Part shown: piece by piece, positions 15,087 to 30,407 of the stretch
How the letters are laid out: every line of letters begins with the position of its first letter
Position numbering within the stretch: position 1 is the stretch's first letter
Assembly: GCA_020725405.1 (NCBI GenBank)
Contig: DYFB01000024.1
Span: 1 to 38,897 of the forward strand
Direction of reading: 5' to 3'
From: Symbiobacterium sp.
GTDB lineage: Bacteria; Bacillota; Sulfobacillia; UBA995; UBA9673
DNA: 38,897 nucleotides
Made by a program: the position numbers and the translations under genes
The notes under the pieces: generated by a model
The model's database searches: none
What the model was told of the DNA's origin: nothing
What the model saw: the letters and a program-made list of their open reading frames with translations, nothing else

Positions 15087-16703
15087 GTGCCCGCGCAGCC
15101 CCCAGGCAAGAGGGAGACCGACTACCGTGTCATCCGGGCCCAAGAGGAGGAGAGGAAGCGTCTGGCCCGCGACCTCCACGACGGGCTTGTCCAGTCCCTC
15201 GTGGGGATGGGCCTTAATCTAGAGCTGGTCGAGAGGCACATCGAGGCCGATCCCGTCCGGAGACCCGAGGCCCTGGAGATACTGGCCCGGCTGAGGGAGC
15301 AGATCGCCGGGAGTCTCGAGGAGGCCCGGCGCATCCTCAGCGACCTCCGCCCGCTCGACCTCAACGGGCGAAGCCTCTCCCAGGCTCTCAAGGACTACGC
15401 CGAGCGGTTCTCGACCGCGGCCGGGCTGCGGATTACCGTCGTCATCTCCGGTCAGGAGACGCGGCTTCACCCCTCCCTCGAGGCCGGCCTGTTCCGCATC
15501 TTCCAGGAAGTCCTCAACAACGTCCGCGACCACGCCGAGGCGGCCGAGGTCTCGCTCAAGCTGCGCTTCCAGCCACGGGCCGTCTCCCTGGAAATAGCCG
15601 ACGACGGCCGGGGGTTCGCCTTCGACGGCGACCTCAAGAGCCTCGCCGCGCGAAGGTGCTTCGGCCTCATCGGCATCAACGAGCGGGTCGAGCTCCTCGG
15701 CGGCACCTGGCGCCTGAGCTCCGCGCCGGGCCGGGGCACCGAGGTCCGGGTGCGGCTCCCGGTCTCAAGCCAGGGGGGCTTCTGGAGCCTGCTCACCCAC
15801 ATCGGGTCTCTCCCGCGGGAGGGCCCGCGAGAGGCGCGGCTCGGGGGCGGGACCGGCTTCCGGAGCGCCTCCAGCGTGCCGGACGGGAGCGGCCCGGATC
15901 GAGCGGTCGGGCCGCCGGTCCGTGTGGCTCTGGCGGACGACCACCGTGTGGTCCGTGAGGGGCTGAAGATGATGTTCGAGACCACCGGCGGCTTCGAGGT
16001 GGTCGGGGAGGCCGGCGACGGAGGCGCGACCGTCCGGATGGTCAGGGAGCTCGTCCCGGATGTCCTGCTTCTTGACCTCGTCATGCCCGGCCCCGGTCCG
16101 CTCGAGGTTACCCGGGAGGTTCGCCGGGCTTCGCCTCGGACGGCCGTCCTCATCCTGACCGCCCATTACGAGCCCGAGCAGGTCCGTGAGCTCCTGGCCG
16201 CCGGGGTCGCCGGCTACCTCCTCAAGAGCTCCGACTCGGCCGAGCTCCTGGGGGCCGTGCTGGCGGCTCATCGGGGAGTGAGCCCTCTCTCCCCGGAGGC
16301 TCTCCGGGCCCTATCGGGCGGGCAAGCCGCGGAGGAGCGGGCCGAGGTGGGTCGGGCCGCGTCCGACGGCGCTTCCTCCGCCGCCTCTCCGGCCGGCCCT
16401 GCGCCTTCCGCCGCGGCCGCCCGGGGAGGGCCTGCACCGTCCCCGTCCCTGCCGCCGTCGGCCGGACCCGTCTCCGGCCCGGCCCCGGCCGCCCTGGCCG
16501 AGCTCACCCTCCGCGAGCGGGAGATACTGGCCCTGGTCGGCGAAGGCTACACCAACGAGGATATCTGCCGGAAGCTCTTCATCAGCGAGAAGACCGTCCG
16601 GAACCACCTCGGAGCCATCATCCGGAAGCTCGGGCTCAGCGACCGGACGCAGGTGGCCCTGGTCGCCCGAGGTCTCCGCCCGGCCTCGGGCCGGGGCCGG
16701 TAG
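15087..16703 (+). CDS. Fused NarL/DegS-type histidine kinase and LuxR-type response regulator
   Basis: A 538-residue cytoplasmic one-chain two-component protein. The kinase half has a HisKA_3 H-box with His31 (RLARDLHDGLVQSL), an N-box (FRIFQEVLNNVRDHA) and a G-box (DDGRGF, then GLIGINERVELLGG). After a ~45-residue linker the receiver (about 278-395) has the acidic pair Asp284/Asp285, phospho-acceptor Asp330 (LLLDLVMPG), Thr358 and Lys380. An Ala/Pro/Ser-rich linker (about 411-470) leads to a LuxR/GerE helix-turn-helix (473-538). No membrane or sensor domain precedes the H-box. DegS/DegU-like systems are normally two genes, so the full fusion is unusual. Start GTG 15087, GGAGGAGGGG upstream. 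Confidence 0.92.
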   Translation: MPAQPPGKRETDYRVIRAQEEERKRLARDLHDGLVQSLVGMGLNLELVERHIEADPVRRPEALEILARLREQIAGSLEEARRILSDLRPLDLNGRSLSQALKDYAERFSTAAGLRITVVISGQETRLHPSLEAGLFRIFQEVLNNVRDHAEAAEVSLKLRFQPRAVSLEIADDGRGFAFDGDLKSLAARRCFGLIGINERVELLGGTWRLSSAPGRGTEVRVRLPVSSQGGFWSLLTHIGSLPREGPREARLGGGTGFRSASSVPDGSGPDRAVGPPVRVALADDHRVVREGLKMMFETTGGFEVVGEAGDGGATVRMVRELVPDVLLLDLVMPGPGPLEVTREVRRASPRTAVLILTAHYEPEQVRELLAAGVAGYLLKSSDSAELLGAVLAAHRGVSPLSPEALRALSGGQAAEERAEVGRAASDGASSAASPAGPAPSAAAARGGPAPSPSLPPSAGPVSGPAPAALAELTLREREILALVGEGYTNEDICRKLFISEKTVRNHLGAIIRKLGLSDRTQVALVARGLRPASGRGR

Positions 16704-16708
16704 CCCCG

Positions 16709-16975
16709 TTACCGGGAGCCGTCACCGTCGTCGCCAGCGCCAGGTGGAATCCCGGCCCGGCGTCGGGCGAGATGCCGCTCGGCGAGCTCGATAAGCCTGT
16801 CGACCATCGGCCCGTCCCCGCCCGGAGCGTTCCCGCCGGGCGCCGGGGAACGGTCCGGACCCGGTCTCCGCCTCCGCGCGGCGAGATTCTGTCCGACCTC
16901 GCGTTTCAGCTCGTCGAGAGCGGCCCGGAGCTCCGGCGAGCGCCTCCGCCGCGAGCGGCCGCGCCTCCCGCCCAT
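16709..16975 (-). CDS. Divergent alpha/beta-type small acid-soluble spore protein-like
   Basis: An 88-residue, very basic small protein. Two segments align by eye with alpha/beta-type SASPs, which coat spore DNA: ELRAALDELKREVGQNLA (15-32), like the AIDQMKLEIA helix, and GGDGPMVDRLIELAERHLA (52-70), like the GG-E-hydrophobic-x-KRL block. The GPR-protease site region reads REVG instead of the usual E-(I/F)-A. An Arg/Pro/Gly-rich insert separates the helices. ATG at 16975 has GGGAGGGAGAG about 7 nt upstream, and a sigma-G-like promoter lies 50-80 bp upstream. The promoter strengthens the family call; otherwise it would be a hypothetical basic protein. Confidence 0.65.
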   Translation of the reverse strand: MGGRRGRSRRRRSPELRAALDELKREVGQNLAARRRRPGPDRSPAPGGNAPGGDGPMVDRLIELAERHLARRRAGIPPGAGDDGDGSR

Positions 16976-17023
16976 GAGGATCTCTCCCTCCCGGTCCCGC
17001 TCATCGGCCTATCGCCTCCGGCC

Positions 17024-17053
17024 TAATATGCCTCCCGGGATGGGGCACCATCA
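17024..17053 (-). promoter_or_regulatory. Sigma-G/F-like forespore promoter for the SASP-like gene
   Basis: On the minus strand, TGATGG (17048-17053) and CATATTA (17024-17030) are separated by 17 bp. The forespore sigma-G consensus is about TGAATA-N17/18-CATACTA, so the -10 has one mismatch and the -35 keeps TGA. It lies 48 bp upstream of the start of the SASP-like gene. Confidence 0.5.
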
Positions 17054-17171: not shown

Positions 17172-17501
17172 GTGGTAACGGACACGGACCGGCCCCAGCG
17201 TCCGGGCGGGGAAGAGGAGGCGCCCAAGGCCGTTCCCCTGCTCGCCCTCAACTCCGAGGCGCTCCTCGCGTGGTTCGGAGGAGTTCTGGCCACCCGCGCC
17301 TGGGTGGACATGGGCCTTCTGGCCGACCCCATCAAGGGCGAGGTGGTCAGGGACCTGACGAGCGCCCGCCTGGCGATAGACGCCTACGATTGCCTGGTTA
17401 AGACGCTCAAGGCCAAGGGACGCCCGGACGGTGTGCGCGAGATGGAGGCGCTCCTCGCCGACCTCCGCCTCAACTTCGTGAGACAGGCGGCCGGCGAGTA
17501 G
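17172..17501 (+). CDS. DUF1844 family protein
   Basis: A 109-residue soluble protein. After a charged, disordered lead (1-20) the family block is visible: LLAWFGGVLATRAWVDMGLL, DPIKGEVVRDLTSARLAIDAYDCLVKTLK, and the C-terminal LLADLRLNFVRQ signature. DUF1844 proteins are small and of unknown function across many bacterial phyla. The frame extends up to 16974, but GTG at 17172 with GGAAGGAGGG about 10 nt upstream starts a family-length product. It overlaps the convergent small membrane protein gene by 32 bp. Confidence 0.85.
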   Translation: MVTDTDRPQRPGGEEEAPKAVPLLALNSEALLAWFGGVLATRAWVDMGLLADPIKGEVVRDLTSARLAIDAYDCLVKTLKAKGRPDGVREMEALLADLRLNFVRQAAGE

Positions 17502-17976: not shown

Positions 17977-18027
17977 CCCTCAGGCCGCCCGGCGGCCGTT
18001 TTGCTCGGAGGGGGAGGGGAGGCCCGC

Positions 18028-19407
18028 GTGGGAGCTCCGGGTGTGGCGTGCGCTGTGGCCGTCGGGTTCTACGTGGCGGTTGAACGTCGGCTCCGGCCCT
18101 CGCTCGCGGGGAGGCCGGTCGCCGTCGTCCGCGACGGTCGAGCTATCGACCTTTCTTCTGACCTTCAGACCCGGGGATTGGTCCTCGGGACCGGCCGGAG
18201 CGCCCTCCTCCAGCTCTGCCCCGAGGCGGCCGTCGCGCCCTACGAGCCGGCCCGCTACGAGGAGGGCGGGCGGCTTCTCCTCGATCTCTACGCAAGGCAC
18301 GTCCCTGCCGTCGAGCCTCTTGACCTCACCCACGCCTTCCTTGACGTGGCCGGGGTCTCCCCGGATCCCTGTTCGCGCATCGGCCGGGAGGCCGCGATCG
18401 GGCTCGGGGTGACGGTCGGCTTCGGCCTCGGGCCGACGAAGCTCACCGCCCGCGCGGCCGGGCTGGAGCTCGTCGCCCGTGGTATCCGGCGGTCGGGGGA
18501 GACCCTCGCCGTTCCGGGCGACCTGAGCGGGACCGGCCCTGGAGGTGACGGGACCGCTCAGGTGAGGGCGTTTCTCGCCCCCCTGCCTGTGTCGTACCTC
18601 TACCCCCTGCCGGATGGAGTCGCCGAGAGGTTGGCCCGCCTGGGGTTCGGGACCATCGGCGAGGTGCAGGGTCTTCCCCTCCGCGAACTCGCCCGCCAGT
18701 TCGGCTGGCCGCTTGCCCGCCGGATAGCCGAGGCCGCGGAGGGGGGAGCGGCCGACCGCGTCCGCCCGGCCTGGCCGCCTCCCGCCCTCAGCGTCTCCCG
18801 GACCTTCGAAGGGGGCCTGGTCGACCGGGAGGGACTCGTCCGGACCCTCCGCGAGGCGGCCGGCCGCCTCGCCCGGGAGATGACCGGGCGCGGCCAGGCG
18901 TCCGACGAGGTCCGGCTGGTCTTCCTGACCGAAGGCGGGCGGCGCCTCGAGGCCTCCCGGCGCCTGGCGCGGCCGACCCGCTCCCCGGTGACCCTGGAGT
19001 GCATCTTGGCCGCCCTGGCCGGACGCCTCCTCCCGGCCGGTGGCGAACCTCCGGTGGCGATGGAGGCCCGGGTCGGGCGGGTCCGCCCCCTTCCAGCCGC
19101 CCAGCTCGAGTTCGGCTTCGGGGGCGGGGGAGGCCTCTCCGCCCCACCGCTCCCGGCGGGGGGGATAGGCCGGGAAGAAGCGCGGGACGTGGCTCGGGAG
19201 CTGGCCTGGTGCTTCGGGGGGAAGGTCCTCGCCGGCCCGGGCGAGGATGGGCTTCCCGCACCGGCTGGCTCTTCCGGGACCGCGGTGAAGGCCGGGGGCA
19301 CCGGAGCCGGCGGGGCCGGGGACTGCGGGGACATTGCGGCCGCGGCCCGCCGCTCGAGACGGGAGCGCTTGCTCATCTTCTACGATCCGCTCCGCGCCGG
19401 TGCCTAG
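18028..19407 (+). CDS. imuB: ImuB-like, catalytically dead Y-family polymerase homologue
   Basis: A 459-residue Y-family protein whose catalytic acids are gone. Where active Pol IV/Dpo4 have D-x-D before the FYA-x-VE motif, this protein has V10-A-V12 (AVAVGFYVAVE). Where they have the S-x-D-E block it has Thr101-His102 (LDLTHAFLDV). The palm, a helix-hairpin-like region (LARLGFGTIGEVQGLPL) and a little-finger domain (ALSVSRTFEGG) remain. QLEFGF at residues 359-364 could be a beta-clamp binding motif. The start is GTG at 18028 with GGGAGGGGAGG 5 nt upstream; TTG at 18001 is also open. It is the first gene of a LexA-controlled operon and is expected to bridge DnaE2 to the clamp. No ImuA gene precedes it. 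Confidence 0.88.
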   Translation: MGAPGVACAVAVGFYVAVERRLRPSLAGRPVAVVRDGRAIDLSSDLQTRGLVLGTGRSALLQLCPEAAVAPYEPARYEEGGRLLLDLYARHVPAVEPLDLTHAFLDVAGVSPDPCSRIGREAAIGLGVTVGFGLGPTKLTARAAGLELVARGIRRSGETLAVPGDLSGTGPGGDGTAQVRAFLAPLPVSYLYPLPDGVAERLARLGFGTIGEVQGLPLRELARQFGWPLARRIAEAAEGGAADRVRPAWPPPALSVSRTFEGGLVDREGLVRTLREAAGRLAREMTGRGQASDEVRLVFLTEGGRRLEASRRLARPTRSPVTLECILAALAGRLLPAGGEPPVAMEARVGRVRPLPAAQLEFGFGGGGGLSAPPLPAGGIGREEARDVARELAWCFGGKVLAGPGEDGLPAPAGSSGTAVKAGGTGAGGAGDCGDIAAAARRSRRERLLIFYDPLRAGA

Positions 19408-19651
19408 GTTCATCGAGCGACCGCTGGAGCAGGTGGGGCTGGGCCCGGGCGGGCGCCCCCTCTTCCTGCGCTGGCGAGGCCGGTCCTGGCGGGTGACCCG
19501 GACGGCCGACGTGTGGAAGGACGTCGGCTGCTGGTGGGAAGAGGAGGGGGAGAAGGTGTTCTACCGCCTCGAGGTCGACGGCGGCCGGTTGTTCGAGGTG
19601 TACCTCGACCGCCGGACGGGGAAGTGGTTTCTCTACCGTGTCTACGATTGA
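19400..19651 (+). CDS. DUF6504 family small protein of the mutasome operon
   Basis: An 83-residue soluble protein. The strand-rich pattern PLFLRWRGRSWRVTRTADVW, CWWEEEGEKVFYRLEVDGG, and a C-terminal RTGKWFLYRVYD match my recollection of DUF6504 proteins, found beside imuB and dnaE2 in Actinobacteria and some other phyla. GTG at 19400 overlaps the imuB stop by 8 bp, and its own end overlaps dnaE2 by 14 bp, so the three are tightly coupled. The biochemical role is unknown. Its position in an SOS operon lacking imuA suggests an accessory part of the translesion complex (inference). Confidence 0.8.
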   Translation: MPRFIERPLEQVGLGPGGRPLFLRWRGRSWRVTRTADVWKDVGCWWEEEGEKVFYRLEVDGGRLFEVYLDRRTGKWFLYRVYD

Positions 19652-22600
19652 GTTCGCCCATCTCCACTTCCACTCGCCCTTCTCTTTCCTCGACGGCGCC
19701 GCCCGGCTGGAGGAGGCTCTGCCGATGGCGGCGGATAAGGGTCTCCGGGCTCTGGCCCTTACCGACCACGACAATGTCTCCGGCGCCGTGCTCTTCCAGC
19801 GCCTGGCCCTGGAGGCGGGCGTGAAGCCCATCCAGGGGGCGGAGGTGACCCTGGAGGGAGGGCGGCACCTCACTTTGCTCGCCCGGGGGCCGGAGGGCTA
19901 CGCCACCCTCTGCTGCCTCCTCACCCGGGCCCACCTCGGGCCTCTCCTTACCCGAGCCCACCTCGGGTCTCCCAGGCGCCGCCCCGTTCTGACCTGGGCC
20001 GACCTCGAGGATGTCGTCGGGCGTGGAGGAGGGGTGGCCGGCGGTCGGACCGGCTGCTCCGGGCCCGGCCTCATCGCCCTTTCCGGCTGCCGCCGCGGTG
20101 AGATACCTTCCCTTCTCCTGGCCGGGAGGATGGCGGAGGCCCACCGGGCGGCAGCCCGCTACCTCGACCTCTTCGGCCGCGATGGTTTCGCCCTCGAGGT
20201 CCAGCGGGAGTTCCTCCCCGGTGGGTCGCGCCTGGAGGCCGGCCTGGTCGAACTAACCCGGAAGCTGGGCCTCCGCCTCGTGGCCACGAACAACGTCCAC
20301 TACGTCTGCAAAGAGGACTTCTGGGTTCACGACCTCCTGACATGCGCCCGGACCTTGACCACGGTCGAGGACGTCCACCCCGAGCGCCGCCTCAACGCCG
20401 AGAACTACCTCAAGTCGCCCGCGGCCATGACCCGCCTGTTCGCCGACCTCCCCGAGGCGGTCCGGGGGGCGGTGGAGATAGCCGAGTCCTGCTCCCCGGC
20501 CCTCGTCCCGGGGAGGAGGCTCCACCCCGCCTTCCCTCTCCCCTCCGGGGAGACGTCGTCCGCGGCTTTCCTTCGGAAAATGACCCTGGCCGGAGCCACC
20601 CGGCGCTACGGGCGGGTCAGCCGGCGCGTCCGGGAGCGCCTGGAGACCGAGCTCGACGTCATCTGCCGGCTGGGCTACGAGGACTACTTCCTTCTTGTCT
20701 GGGACCTCTGCCTTTACGCCCGCCGCCGGGGAATCCGCTTCGCCGGCCGGGGCTCGGCCGCCGACTCGGCCGTGGCCTACTGCCTCGGGATAACCAACGT
20801 GGACGCCGTCGGGCGGGGCCTCCTCTTCGAGCGCTTCATGAGCCTTGAGAGGGGGGAGAAGCCGGACATCGACATCGACTTCGACGCCCGCTACCGTGAC
20901 GAGGTCGCCGCCTATGTAACGGCCCGTTACGGCGGAGAGACCGGGCGGGCGTGGGGCGGGGCGGGCGGCGCGGCGGCTGGCGGCCCGGCTGCGGGCGGGG
21001 ATGCGGTGTGGGGCGGGGCGGGCGGCGCGGCGGCTGGCGGCCCGGCCGCGGGCGGGGGTGCGGCGTGGGCCGGGACGGGCGGCGCGGCGGCGGTGGGCCC
21101 GCGGGTGGCTTCCGTGTGCACCTACAATACCTTTCACGCCCGGTCGGCCGTCCGGGACCTCGGTAAGGCCCTCGGCCTTCCGCCCGCGGACCTCGACCGG
21201 TTGGCCAGGCACCTCCCCTACGCCGGCGGCGCGGACATCCCCTCCCTTCTCGAGTCCCTCCCGGAGCTCCGCGACAGCGGTCTCCCCTTCTGGAAGTTCG
21301 AGAGGCTCTTCGCCGCCGCCGCGAAGGTGGCCGGCTTTCCCCGCCACCTCGGGACCCATCTGGGAGGGCTCGTCGTCTGCCGGGAGCCCCTGACGACGGT
21401 CACGCCGCTGCAGTGGGCGGCCAAGGGGGTCGTGGTCTGCCAGTTCGACAAGGAGTACGTCGAGGACCTCGGTCTCATCAAGCTCGACCTTCTCTCCCTC
21501 CGGACCCTCTCGGCCGTCAACCAGGCCGCGACGGAGCTCGGCGACGGCTTCGACTACGACGCCATCCCGCCAGCCGACCCGGCCACTATGGCCATGATCC
21601 GGCGCGGGGAGACGGTGGGGGTCTTCCAGCTCGAGAGTCCGGCCCAGCGGGCCCTGCAGGCCCGGCTCGGGGTGACGAGCTACGAGGACCTCGTGGCCAG
21701 CGTGGCCCTCATCCGTCCCGGGCCGATAAGGGGGAACATGGTCGAGCCGTTCCTCGCCCGCCGCCGGGGTTTCGAGCCGGTCACCTATCTCCATCCGGCG
21801 CTCGAGCCCATCCTTAAGAAGACCTACGGGGTGGTTCTCTTCCAGGAGCAGGTCATCGAGATAGCCGTGGCTGTGGCCGGCTTCAGCCCCGGCGAGGCCG
21901 ACCGCCTGCGGCGGGTGATGACCCACCACCGCCGCGGCCCGGAGATGGAGGACATCGGCCGCCTCTTTGTGACCCGGGCCGTCGAGCGTGGCGTCGACGA
22001 GGAAACCGCCCGGCGCATCTTCGCCGGCATGGAGGGCTACGCGAGCTACGGGTTTTGCGAGGCCCACGCCGCCGCCTTCGCCGACACCGCCTACCGGACG
22101 GCCTACCTCGCCAGGCACCATCCGGCGGAGTTCTTCGCCGCCCTCTTCTCCCAGCAGCCGATGGGCTACTACCCCCCGGGGACGCTCTGCGTCGAGGCAG
22201 CCCGCCGCGGGGTCCGGGTCCTGCCGCCCGACGTGAACCTGAGCGGGGCCTGCTACCTCGTCGAGAAGGTCGAGGGCGCCGGCGGGGCGGGAAGCCTCGA
22301 GGGCGGCGAGGCTCGGGCCCGGACGAAGGGGGTACGGGTGTCCCTCCGGCAGGTCAAGGGGATGCAGCGGCGGGCGCTGGAGGCCATCCTCGGGGAGAGG
22401 GAGGAAAGGGGGCCCTTCTCCTCCCTTTGGGACTTCTGCCGCCGGTGCTGCCCGCCGGTGCCGCGCGACGTGGTGGAGGCCCTCATCCTCTGCGGGGCCT
22501 TCGACAGTCTCGACCCGAACCGCCGCCGCCTTCTCTGGGAGCTCCCGGGAGCCCTGTCGACGGCGCGGGGAGGGCCGGGGCTCCTGGAGGAGGGTGCCGA

Positions 22601-23054
22601 TCCGGCCGGCGCGGGCCCACCGGCGGAGGGCGGCGTCCGGGACTTCACCGCCGGGGAGAAGATGCTCCACGAGTACGATATCCTGGGGTTCTCGCCGGAG
22701 AGCCACCTCCTGGCCTACCTCCGCCCGCGTCTCGAGCGCTCGGGCTTCCTGTCATCGGCCGACCTGGGGAGGGCCCCCGCGGGGCGGCGGGTGAGGGTCG
22801 CCGGGCTCACCGTCCGGCCGCACCGCCCACCCACGAGAAGCGGGAGGACGGTCGTCTTCCTTTCCCTGGAGGACGAGAAGGGACTCATCGACGTGACCGT
22901 CTTCGACCGGGTCTACCAGCGGTACGGCCGACTCCTCTTCGCCGACCCATCCCCGCCGCTCGCGGTGGAGGGAACGGTCGAGCGGCGCGGGAGGGCGGTC
23001 ACTGTCGTCGCCCGCCGTATCGAGACCCTGGCCGCGGCCCTCGATCCGCCCTGA
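19638..23054 (+). CDS. dnaE2: Error-prone DNA polymerase III alpha subunit DnaE2
   Basis: A 1138-residue C-family polymerase for translesion synthesis after DNA damage. Order: PHP domain (HLHFHSPFSFLDG at 8-20, LTDHDN), palm with GRGSAADSAVAYCLG, the catalytic pair Asp410/Asp412 in KPDIDIDFD, the third Asp617 in IKLDLLSLRTL, fingers (FQLESPAQRALQ, LIRPGPI, LFQEQVIEIA), HhH region, and a C-terminal OB domain (about 1045-1130). Short overall size and lack of a C-terminal tau-binding part fit DnaE2 rather than DnaE1. A ~52-residue Gly/Ala/Trp repeat insert (about 436-487) lies soon after the catalytic pair, and a 9-residue duplication near residue 95. GTG at 19638 overlaps the DUF6504 gene. Confidence 0.95.
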   Translation: MSTIEFAHLHFHSPFSFLDGAARLEEALPMAADKGLRALALTDHDNVSGAVLFQRLALEAGVKPIQGAEVTLEGGRHLTLLARGPEGYATLCCLLTRAHLGPLLTRAHLGSPRRRPVLTWADLEDVVGRGGGVAGGRTGCSGPGLIALSGCRRGEIPSLLLAGRMAEAHRAAARYLDLFGRDGFALEVQREFLPGGSRLEAGLVELTRKLGLRLVATNNVHYVCKEDFWVHDLLTCARTLTTVEDVHPERRLNAENYLKSPAAMTRLFADLPEAVRGAVEIAESCSPALVPGRRLHPAFPLPSGETSSAAFLRKMTLAGATRRYGRVSRRVRERLETELDVICRLGYEDYFLLVWDLCLYARRRGIRFAGRGSAADSAVAYCLGITNVDAVGRGLLFERFMSLERGEKPDIDIDFDARYRDEVAAYVTARYGGETGRAWGGAGGAAAGGPAAGGDAVWGGAGGAAAGGPAAGGGAAWAGTGGAAAVGPRVASVCTYNTFHARSAVRDLGKALGLPPADLDRLARHLPYAGGADIPSLLESLPELRDSGLPFWKFERLFAAAAKVAGFPRHLGTHLGGLVVCREPLTTVTPLQWAAKGVVVCQFDKEYVEDLGLIKLDLLSLRTLSAVNQAATELGDGFDYDAIPPADPATMAMIRRGETVGVFQLESPAQRALQARLGVTSYEDLVASVALIRPGPIRGNMVEPFLARRRGFEPVTYLHPALEPILKKTYGVVLFQEQVIEIAVAVAGFSPGEADRLRRVMTHHRRGPEMEDIGRLFVTRAVERGVDEETARRIFAGMEGYASYGFCEAHAAAFADTAYRTAYLARHHPAEFFAALFSQQPMGYYPPGTLCVEAARRGVRVLPPDVNLSGACYLVEKVEGAGGAGSLEGGEARARTKGVRVSLRQVKGMQRRALEAILGEREERGPFSSLWDFCRRCCPPVPRDVVEALILCGAFDSLDPNRRRLLWELPGALSTARGGPGLLEEGADPAGAGPPAEGGVRDFTAGEKMLHEYDILGFSPESHLLAYLRPRLERSGFLSSADLGRAPAGRRVRVAGLTVRPHRPPTRSGRTVVFLSLEDEKGLIDVTVFDRVYQRYGRLLFADPSPPLAVEGTVERRGRAVTVVARRIETLAAALDPP
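19917..19970 (+). repeat. 27 bp in-frame duplication in dnaE2
   Basis: Copies at 19917-19943 and 19944-19970 are nearly identical and encode LLTRAHLGP/LLTRAHLGS, duplicating a 9-residue piece of the PHP domain region. Confidence 0.9.
20951..21098 (+). repeat. 57 bp in-frame tandem repeat inside dnaE2
   Basis: Copies start at 20951, 21008 and 21065 (third partial). The period is 57 bp, or 19 residues ([16 protein letters not shown] type). It makes a Gly/Ala linker in the polymerase palm/fingers region without shifting the frame. Confidence 0.95.
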
Positions 23055-30023: not shown

Positions 30024-30407
30024 CTAGGTTCTGAGCTCCTCCTGGGCTGTCCCCGTCTGGACGGCCCAGTACGGGAAGGGTCCGGCGGGCACGGCCCGGC
30101 TATAAGCGGGCCGCGCGGCCTCCCCGGTTCGGTAGACCTCAGGAGCGTGGAACGCCCGCGTCGGCCCCGGCGAGACTCCGGTCGCCGGCGACGCGACGGC
30201 CGCGGTTCGAGCCGCCGCGCGTCTTGCCGTATGCTCGGCGGCAAGCGCGGCTTCGGCTCTGGCTACGGCCAGCTTGACCAGATTCCCGCAGTCCCGGGCG
30301 CTGACACTGCCCCAGCCTTCCGTGGCGACGGTGTCATAGACACCGAGCTCCCTGGCCAGGTCGTACTTCAGGGCGTCGGACATCACCCCTCGCGTGCGTC
30401 TCGGCAT
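30024..30407 (-). CDS. Alpha/beta-type small acid-soluble spore protein with C-terminal extension
   Basis: A 127-residue protein. The first ~65 residues match the SASP subgroup seen in Moorella- and Desulfotomaculum-type spore-formers: RGVMSDALKYDLARELGVYD, EGWGSVSARDCGNLVKLAVARAEAAL. SASPs bind and protect DNA in dormant spores and are cut by the GPR protease on germination. The GPR site region here reads YDLA. Residues about 66-127 form an Ala/Pro/Arg-rich tail absent from typical 60-90-residue SASPs. ATG at 30407 follows GGGAGGTG at about 5 nt. No clear sigma-G promoter was seen upstream. Confidence 0.78.
   Translation of the reverse strand: MPRRTRGVMSDALKYDLARELGVYDTVATEGWGSVSARDCGNLVKLAVARAEAALAAEHTARRAAARTAAVASPATGVSPGPTRAFHAPEVYRTGEAARPAYSRAVPAGPFPYWAVQTGTAQEELRT

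Follow-up and report, generated by a model that had tools for sequence, protein, structure and literature searches.

The locus and its conservation

The window, by which we mean the whole analysed stretch of 38,897 nucleotides, carries on its minus strand a SASP-like ORF (16709-16975, with its ATG at 16975 and its end at 16709) whose product of 88 amino acids is MGGRRGRSRRRRSPELRAALDELKREVGQNLAARRRRPGPDRSPAPGGNAPGGDGPMVDRLIELAERHLARRRAGIPPGAGDDGDGSR. On the evidence of sequence comparison, this 88-codon ORF is a real gene, homologous to alpha/beta SASPs though divergent from them, and the elements in and around it are collected in Table 1. The gene lies tail to tail with a kinase gene (15087-16703), and its other neighbour, a DUF1844 gene, is arranged head to head with it; this head-to-head arrangement recurs at orthologues found in G002 (L011) and G003 (L012), which represent two other genera of the family. 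Together with the host genome (G000), this places the gene in three of the four family genomes; in the fourth, G001, which is 81% complete, neither the SASP-like gene nor the DUF1844 gene was found. A kinase gene also lies on the far side of the SASP-like gene in G002, with one further gene between the two, and the G003 contig ends before this point.

Table 1. Features of the SASP-like locus, in window coordinates.
Feature	Position	Strand	Basis or remark
SASP-like gene	16709..16975	-	88 aa, ATG start; ORF, PF00269 21.3 bits and third-position bias
Helix 2 (predicted), residues 55-73	16757..16813	-	AlphaFold2 model; profile alignment to SASP
DGPMVDR, replacing GGxMV[RK][RK]	16796..16816	-	[DE]GPMV in 3/3 orthologues; GG in 53/53 class SASPs
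Arg/Pro/Gly-rich linker of normal length, replacing the conserved GYWG...R..G linker	16814..16870	-	Class SASP alignment and lengths
Helix 1 (predicted), residues 13-35	16871..16939	-	AlphaFold2 model, block mean pLDDT up to 89; profile alignment to SASP helix 1
EVGQN at the GPR-site position, degenerate (mostly E[VI]Ax[ED] in class SASPs)	16886..16900	-	Class SASP alignment
GAGGGAG, probable ribosome-binding site	16984..16990	-	8 bases 5' of ATG
GGCATATTA, predicted forespore-type (sigma-F/sigma-G) -10 element	17024..17032	-	Identical in three orthologues; 2 genome copies
TGATGG, candidate -35, weak, not conserved	17048..17053	-	GHATR matched at 3/5 positions, spacing 17 or 18
DUF1844 domain of the divergent neighbour gene	17286..17480	+	Pfam; neighbour kept in three genera

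Several other genes in these surroundings deserve mention. Directly 3' of the SASP-like gene and on the same strand, G002 has a gene of 111 aa (L011:1029-1364, minus) with a counterpart of 127 aa in G003 (L012:203-586, minus); this gene has no Pfam match, and none like it turned up in G000 or G001. The kinase gene of the window encodes HisKA_3, HATPase, response regulator and LuxR-type HTH domains in one polypeptide of 538 aa, which shares 69% identity with its counterpart in G002 and resembles a fused DegS/DegU-type pair. Further along, 18001-23054 holds a Y-family polymerase gene (ImuB-like, with an IMS match) followed by a gene that by eye resembles DNA polymerase III alpha (DnaE2-like).

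Differences between the orthologues were richest at the third codon position in every pair (27/27/51, 19/16/37 and 18/16/31 substitutions at first, second and third positions), as expected for a gene translated on the minus strand, and comparison of the three sequences shows that the reading frame is under purifying selection. That the ORF is instead a chance product of GC-rich DNA, with either the antisense ORF 16772-17026 as the real gene or no gene at all, is barely conceivable. Two of the three antisense frames are indeed stop-free in each of the three orthologous genes, but the product of the antisense ORF had neither a Pfam nor an NCBIfam match and received no score from a model built from SASPs of the same class, and the minus strand is favoured by the codon-position bias, the synteny and the profile match; the conservation data thus already contradict a chance ORF. 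The antisense ORF was ruled out as a real gene on these grounds.

The host genome (2.23 Mb in 97 contigs, 95% complete) holds sigG (502 bits) and gpr (274 bits), and the Pfam SASP profile exceeds its cut-off at six places in it, two of which fall within one gene; from this we conclude that the genome belongs to a spore former.

Homology to alpha/beta SASPs

The sequence-only reading had described a loose match of the 88-residue product to the SASP helices and proposed a profile search against the family. The loose match was confirmed: the Pfam SASP profile (PF00269) aligned to residues 11-69 over profile positions 3-59 with 21.3 bits and an E-value of 2.6e-4, which is significant homology but falls below the curated cut-off of 22 bits. 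The orthologues scored 14.8 bits and no match against the same profile, and an NCBIfam search with the protein gave no match. A class model of 53 SASPs, which excluded the three orthologues and the SspF-like protein at 30024-30407, gave the protein 31.1 bits, a score reached by none of 2000 composition shuffles (maximum 9.4). The orthologues in G002 and G003 scored 20.7 and 10.8 bits, with maxima of 8.9 and 5.5 in 2000 shuffles each. In the reverse direction, a profile of the three orthologues picked up 47 of 154 class genomes at E<=1e-5; the best of these matches included ordinary SASPs (G026, G027, G012 and G001), those of the first three at E-values of 6e-9 to 5e-8, and some of the weaker ones contain stops and may be chance. 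Judged by these profile comparisons, the SASP resemblance of the 88-aa protein is significant and exceeds chance despite the Pfam score below the cut-off.

The protein shares with alpha/beta SASPs (PF00269; SspA/B/C/D) two predicted helices in the same order, the core ALDxLKxEV...MVxRxIxxAExxL, a small size and a basic character; its gene likewise has a forespore-type -10 element, in a genome that carries gpr and sigG. The excess of R+K over D+E is +9, +14 and +5 in the three orthologues. An AlphaFold2 single-sequence model has helices at 13-35 and 55-73 and a loose linker, which is where the alignment predicts them, but with a mean pLDDT of 68 and a pTM of 0.29 the model is too weak to serve as a test, and a two-helix model at this pTM would match many folds. 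Compared with solved structures, an ordinary SASP of the host genome matches the SspC-DNA complex (PDB 2z3x; E 0.0011), whereas the SASP-like protein did not match it at E<=10. The lone solved-structure match of the latter at this threshold, to Nop58 (E 0.87), was taken as chance.

In a tree of 57 proteins, the three orthologues formed one clade (support 100/98) with a stem of 3.54 and end branches of 0.73-1.12, although this tree rests on few columns and its long branches make placements unsure. When the profile of the three orthologues was run against the 154 class genomes, the orthologues themselves scored 134, 132 and 88 bits and the next match 37.5 bits, and because of this gap we count the clade in 3 of the 154 genomes. 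No member beyond the three was found, in a search that for many genomes scored 34 first-look candidates and that a very divergent member could escape. The long stem and end branches, together with the G003 linker, which is 18-19 residues shorter than that of the other two, are what would be expected of a decaying SASP gene heading to a pseudogene; we regard this as improbable, given that the frame, the [DE]GPMV motif and the -10 element are all kept in three genera and that substitutions are biased to third codon positions.

Linker, GPR site and helix 2 motif

An Arg/Pro insert between the helices, as first described, is not what we found. The GPR P1 residue and the MV of helix 2 are 30 residues apart here and 29 in G002, an ordinary distance next to the 28-41 residues (mode 29) of the 53 class SASPs, so that an insert is ruled out by length and the linker is better described as replaced in sequence: an Arg/Pro/Gly linker stands in for the GYWG...R..G..GG of alpha/beta SASPs. 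In G003 the same distance is 11 residues, most of the linker being absent.

The sequence-only reading had also proposed a spore-DNA protein with an altered GPR cleavage region, of which the second part held. Among the 53 class SASPs, the positions of the GPR region are occupied by E (47), V/I (51), A (53), any residue, and E/D (48). The orthologues have REVGQN here, RDIAAS in G002 and GEATGR in G003, the last with an unsure alignment, as the residues after E adjoin the shortened linker; the cleavage pattern E|(I/V)A-x-E/D is found in none of the three, so that the site of this clade is degenerate and inconsistent among orthologues. For comparison, the four C. difficile SASPs are reported to hold an 'EIA' cut by GPR (PMC8452069).

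As judged from the alignment, the alteration goes beyond the GPR site, since the GG motif before helix 2 and the first basic residue within it are also changed. GG is present in 53/53 class SASPs, which have R/K at the first basic position in 53/53 and at the second in 49/53. In place of GGxMV[RK][RK], the orthologues have DGPMVDR (here), EGPMVTR and EGPMVAH, with D, E and E in place of the first Gly of GG and Asp, Thr and Ala at the first basic position of helix 2. Acidic residues at positions that are Gly or basic in ordinary SASPs argue against SASP-like DNA binding, and with both positions replaced in all three orthologues, the 'spore-DNA protein' of the sequence-only reading is doubtful in its canonical sense. 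Because strict membership of the alpha/beta SASPs fails at the family cut-off, the GPR site and the GG/basic motif, we call the protein SASP-derived.

The protein might still be an ordinary minor alpha/beta SASP that has drifted but retains SASP-like DNA coating and GPR cleavage at RE|V, a possibility that we take seriously but consider unlikely. The P1 Glu and P1' Val are kept in the protein, and 11 of the 53 class SASPs also miss [ED][IVFLAT][AT]x[ED]. Against this, G002 has Asp at P1, G003 has Ala at P1', and the P2' Ala is kept only in G002, and the loss of the first Gly and the first basic residue is common to the whole clade. The first Gly of GG is presumably Gly52 of SspC. The substitution G52A is reported to make SspC a poor DNA binder (PMC11392383), but sspA G52V of C. 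difficile is reported not to impair UV protection (PMC8452069), which tempers any strong conclusion from the loss of GG and is consistent with a drifted but working SASP.

A predicted forespore-type promoter element

TGATGG-N17-CATATTA had been pointed out 48 bp 5' of the gene on its own strand, and this was borne out, with TGATGG at 17053-17048, CATATTA at 17030-17024 and 48 bases between the latter and the ATG. The consensus of B. subtilis sigma-F/G promoters is GHATR at -35 and CATWHTA at -10. The closeness to this forespore consensus claimed for the site holds for the -10, which is a perfect match and part of a 9-mer (GGCATATTA) common to the three orthologues, but not for the -35, where three of five positions agree with GHATR. 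The best -35 likewise reaches 3/5 in the other two orthologues, the sequences are not alike among the three, and nothing similar to TGATGG could be aligned in the upstreams of the G002 and G003 orthologues. Of the two promoter halves, the -10, predicted to be forespore-type, is therefore well supported by its conservation, and the -35 is a weak candidate.

GGCATATTA ends 48, 25 and 22 bases before the start codons here, in G002 and in G003. A shared 9-mer of any kind arose in 17 of 3000 dinucleotide-shuffled sets of three 200-base upstreams, and GGCATATTA has two sites in the whole 2.23 Mb of the host genome (one in the backward-read control), the second of which (C73) lies among ORFs that by eye resemble glycosyltransferases. 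The shorter CATATTA has 9 sites in G000 (both strands), 4 in G002, 5 in G003 and 8 in G001, against 26, 22, 15 and 25 in backward-read controls. When the other eight sites of G000, three of G002 and four of G003 were read by eye, three genes recurred behind CATATTA in more than one genome: the SASP-like gene, ytfJ and a gene whose product begins ESRAAYLSGLVRGLDL. G000 and G003 both have the element in front of ytfJ (PF09579, 82 bits), where GAATA precedes the -10 by 18 bases. One G003 site precedes an L13-like ribosomal protein gene, which counts against specificity, and most other G000 sites precede no gene that could be named, both as read by eye. The ESRAAYLSGLVRGLDL gene, preceded by GGCCATATTA in G000, G002 and G003 (L127, L134 and L138), is a candidate forespore gene in its own right, and Pfam gave no match to its G000 protein at E<=1.

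The same AT-rich element could instead act for the DUF1844 gene on the other strand, or for a sigma factor of the mother cell, given that it sits between divergent genes and that the -10 elements of sigma-E (CATACANT) and sigma-K (CATANNNTA) also begin with CATA. We find this very unlikely: 25 and 22 bases separate the element from the start codon of the SASP-like gene in G002 and G003, the distance from the element to the DUF1844 gene seems to vary, as far as the uncertain DUF1844 start codons allow, and ytfJ has this 7-mer too, preceded by a -35 of forespore type. A sigma-E or sigma-K promoter was ruled out by the bases following CATA, which misfit both consensus sequences.

Among the SASP genes of the class, CATWHTA was found in 14/57 upstreams (11/54 without the three orthologues) and in 3/57 on the antisense strand, after dropping repeated proteins and loci with fewer than 100 upstream bases; the background in loci at large was 0.019 per 140 bases. 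Six other SASP genes of the host genome had no CATNNTA in the 140 bases before the matched stretch, which for the one at C4:41 begins inside the gene. Sigma-F and sigma-G promoters are reported to resemble each other closely, the former having a G upstream of the -10 and the latter an A downstream of it (PMC3789822), and three SASP genes are named among the genes under both sigma factors with sigma-F-like promoters (PMC7438776). A G directly precedes CATATTA in all three orthologues. Of the sigma-G-like promoter originally proposed, the forespore-type -10 thus stands, while sigma-F and sigma-G are indistinguishable here, and owing to this likeness we call the element forespore-type without choosing between the two.

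Possible role

SASP homology and a forespore-type -10 are, from comparative evidence, the well-supported properties of this gene. Beyond them, we consider it reasonably probable that the product is a minor protein of the forespore, derived from SASPs, which binds nucleic acid via Arg-rich tails and is a poor GPR substrate. The gene would be transcribed in the forespore by sigma-F or sigma-G, and its product, keeping two SASP-like helices, would bind nucleic acid mainly through the Arg-rich N-terminus and the linker, as opposed to the canonical GG/KR interface. Made beside ordinary SASPs, it may form a minor component of the nucleoid, and as a poor GPR substrate it could outlast germination.

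The gene is a modest variant within the well-known SASP family. SASPs are normally recognised by a near-fixed linker, the GG motif and the GPR site, all three of which this clade has lost in three genera; by keeping its frame, its position and a forespore-type -10, it shows which parts of the SASP framework are dispensable and offers a natural test for SASP-like roles beyond coating DNA and feeding germination. More speculatively, and with the odds against it, the clade could be a SASP paralogue, seen in one family, that has lost the protease site and the canonical DNA-binding interface and has been repurposed as a persistent forespore protein. With its Arg-rich tails, such a protein would bind nucleic acid or have a regulatory function, and it would survive germination while other SASPs are degraded.

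Other SASPs of the host genome and the class

The best other match of the protein in its own genome is the paralogue G000:C4:85693 (MPRRRRHVLPEAGEALDRFKYEVAEDLGL...; E 0.001, 38%), which shares the Arg-rich start and the PE..ALD..K of helix 1 but differs in retaining the usual linker, the GG motif and the GPR site. The window holds another divergent alpha/beta member at 30024-30407 (PF00269 18.9 bits; class model 37.1 bits), which has a C-terminal extension of about 65 residues and which, by eye, we take to be an SspF-like protein with a long C-terminal tail. This SspF/Ssp4-type SASP differs from the 16709 protein in retaining KYDLARELG and the GWGSVSARDCGN linker, and stands apart from it in the 57-protein tree, with the long branches noted above. 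A further variant has a duplicated first helix, with two ALDxLKxEVA-like helices before GGxxGGxxGGxMV. It was seen in 11 of 15 stretches across the class, a count that gives no frequency as the stretches were chosen mostly for the pattern: one in the host genome (L108; G000:C4:40700-41600, minus), the others being L109, L110, L112-L118 and L120, with a twelfth, weaker case in L119.
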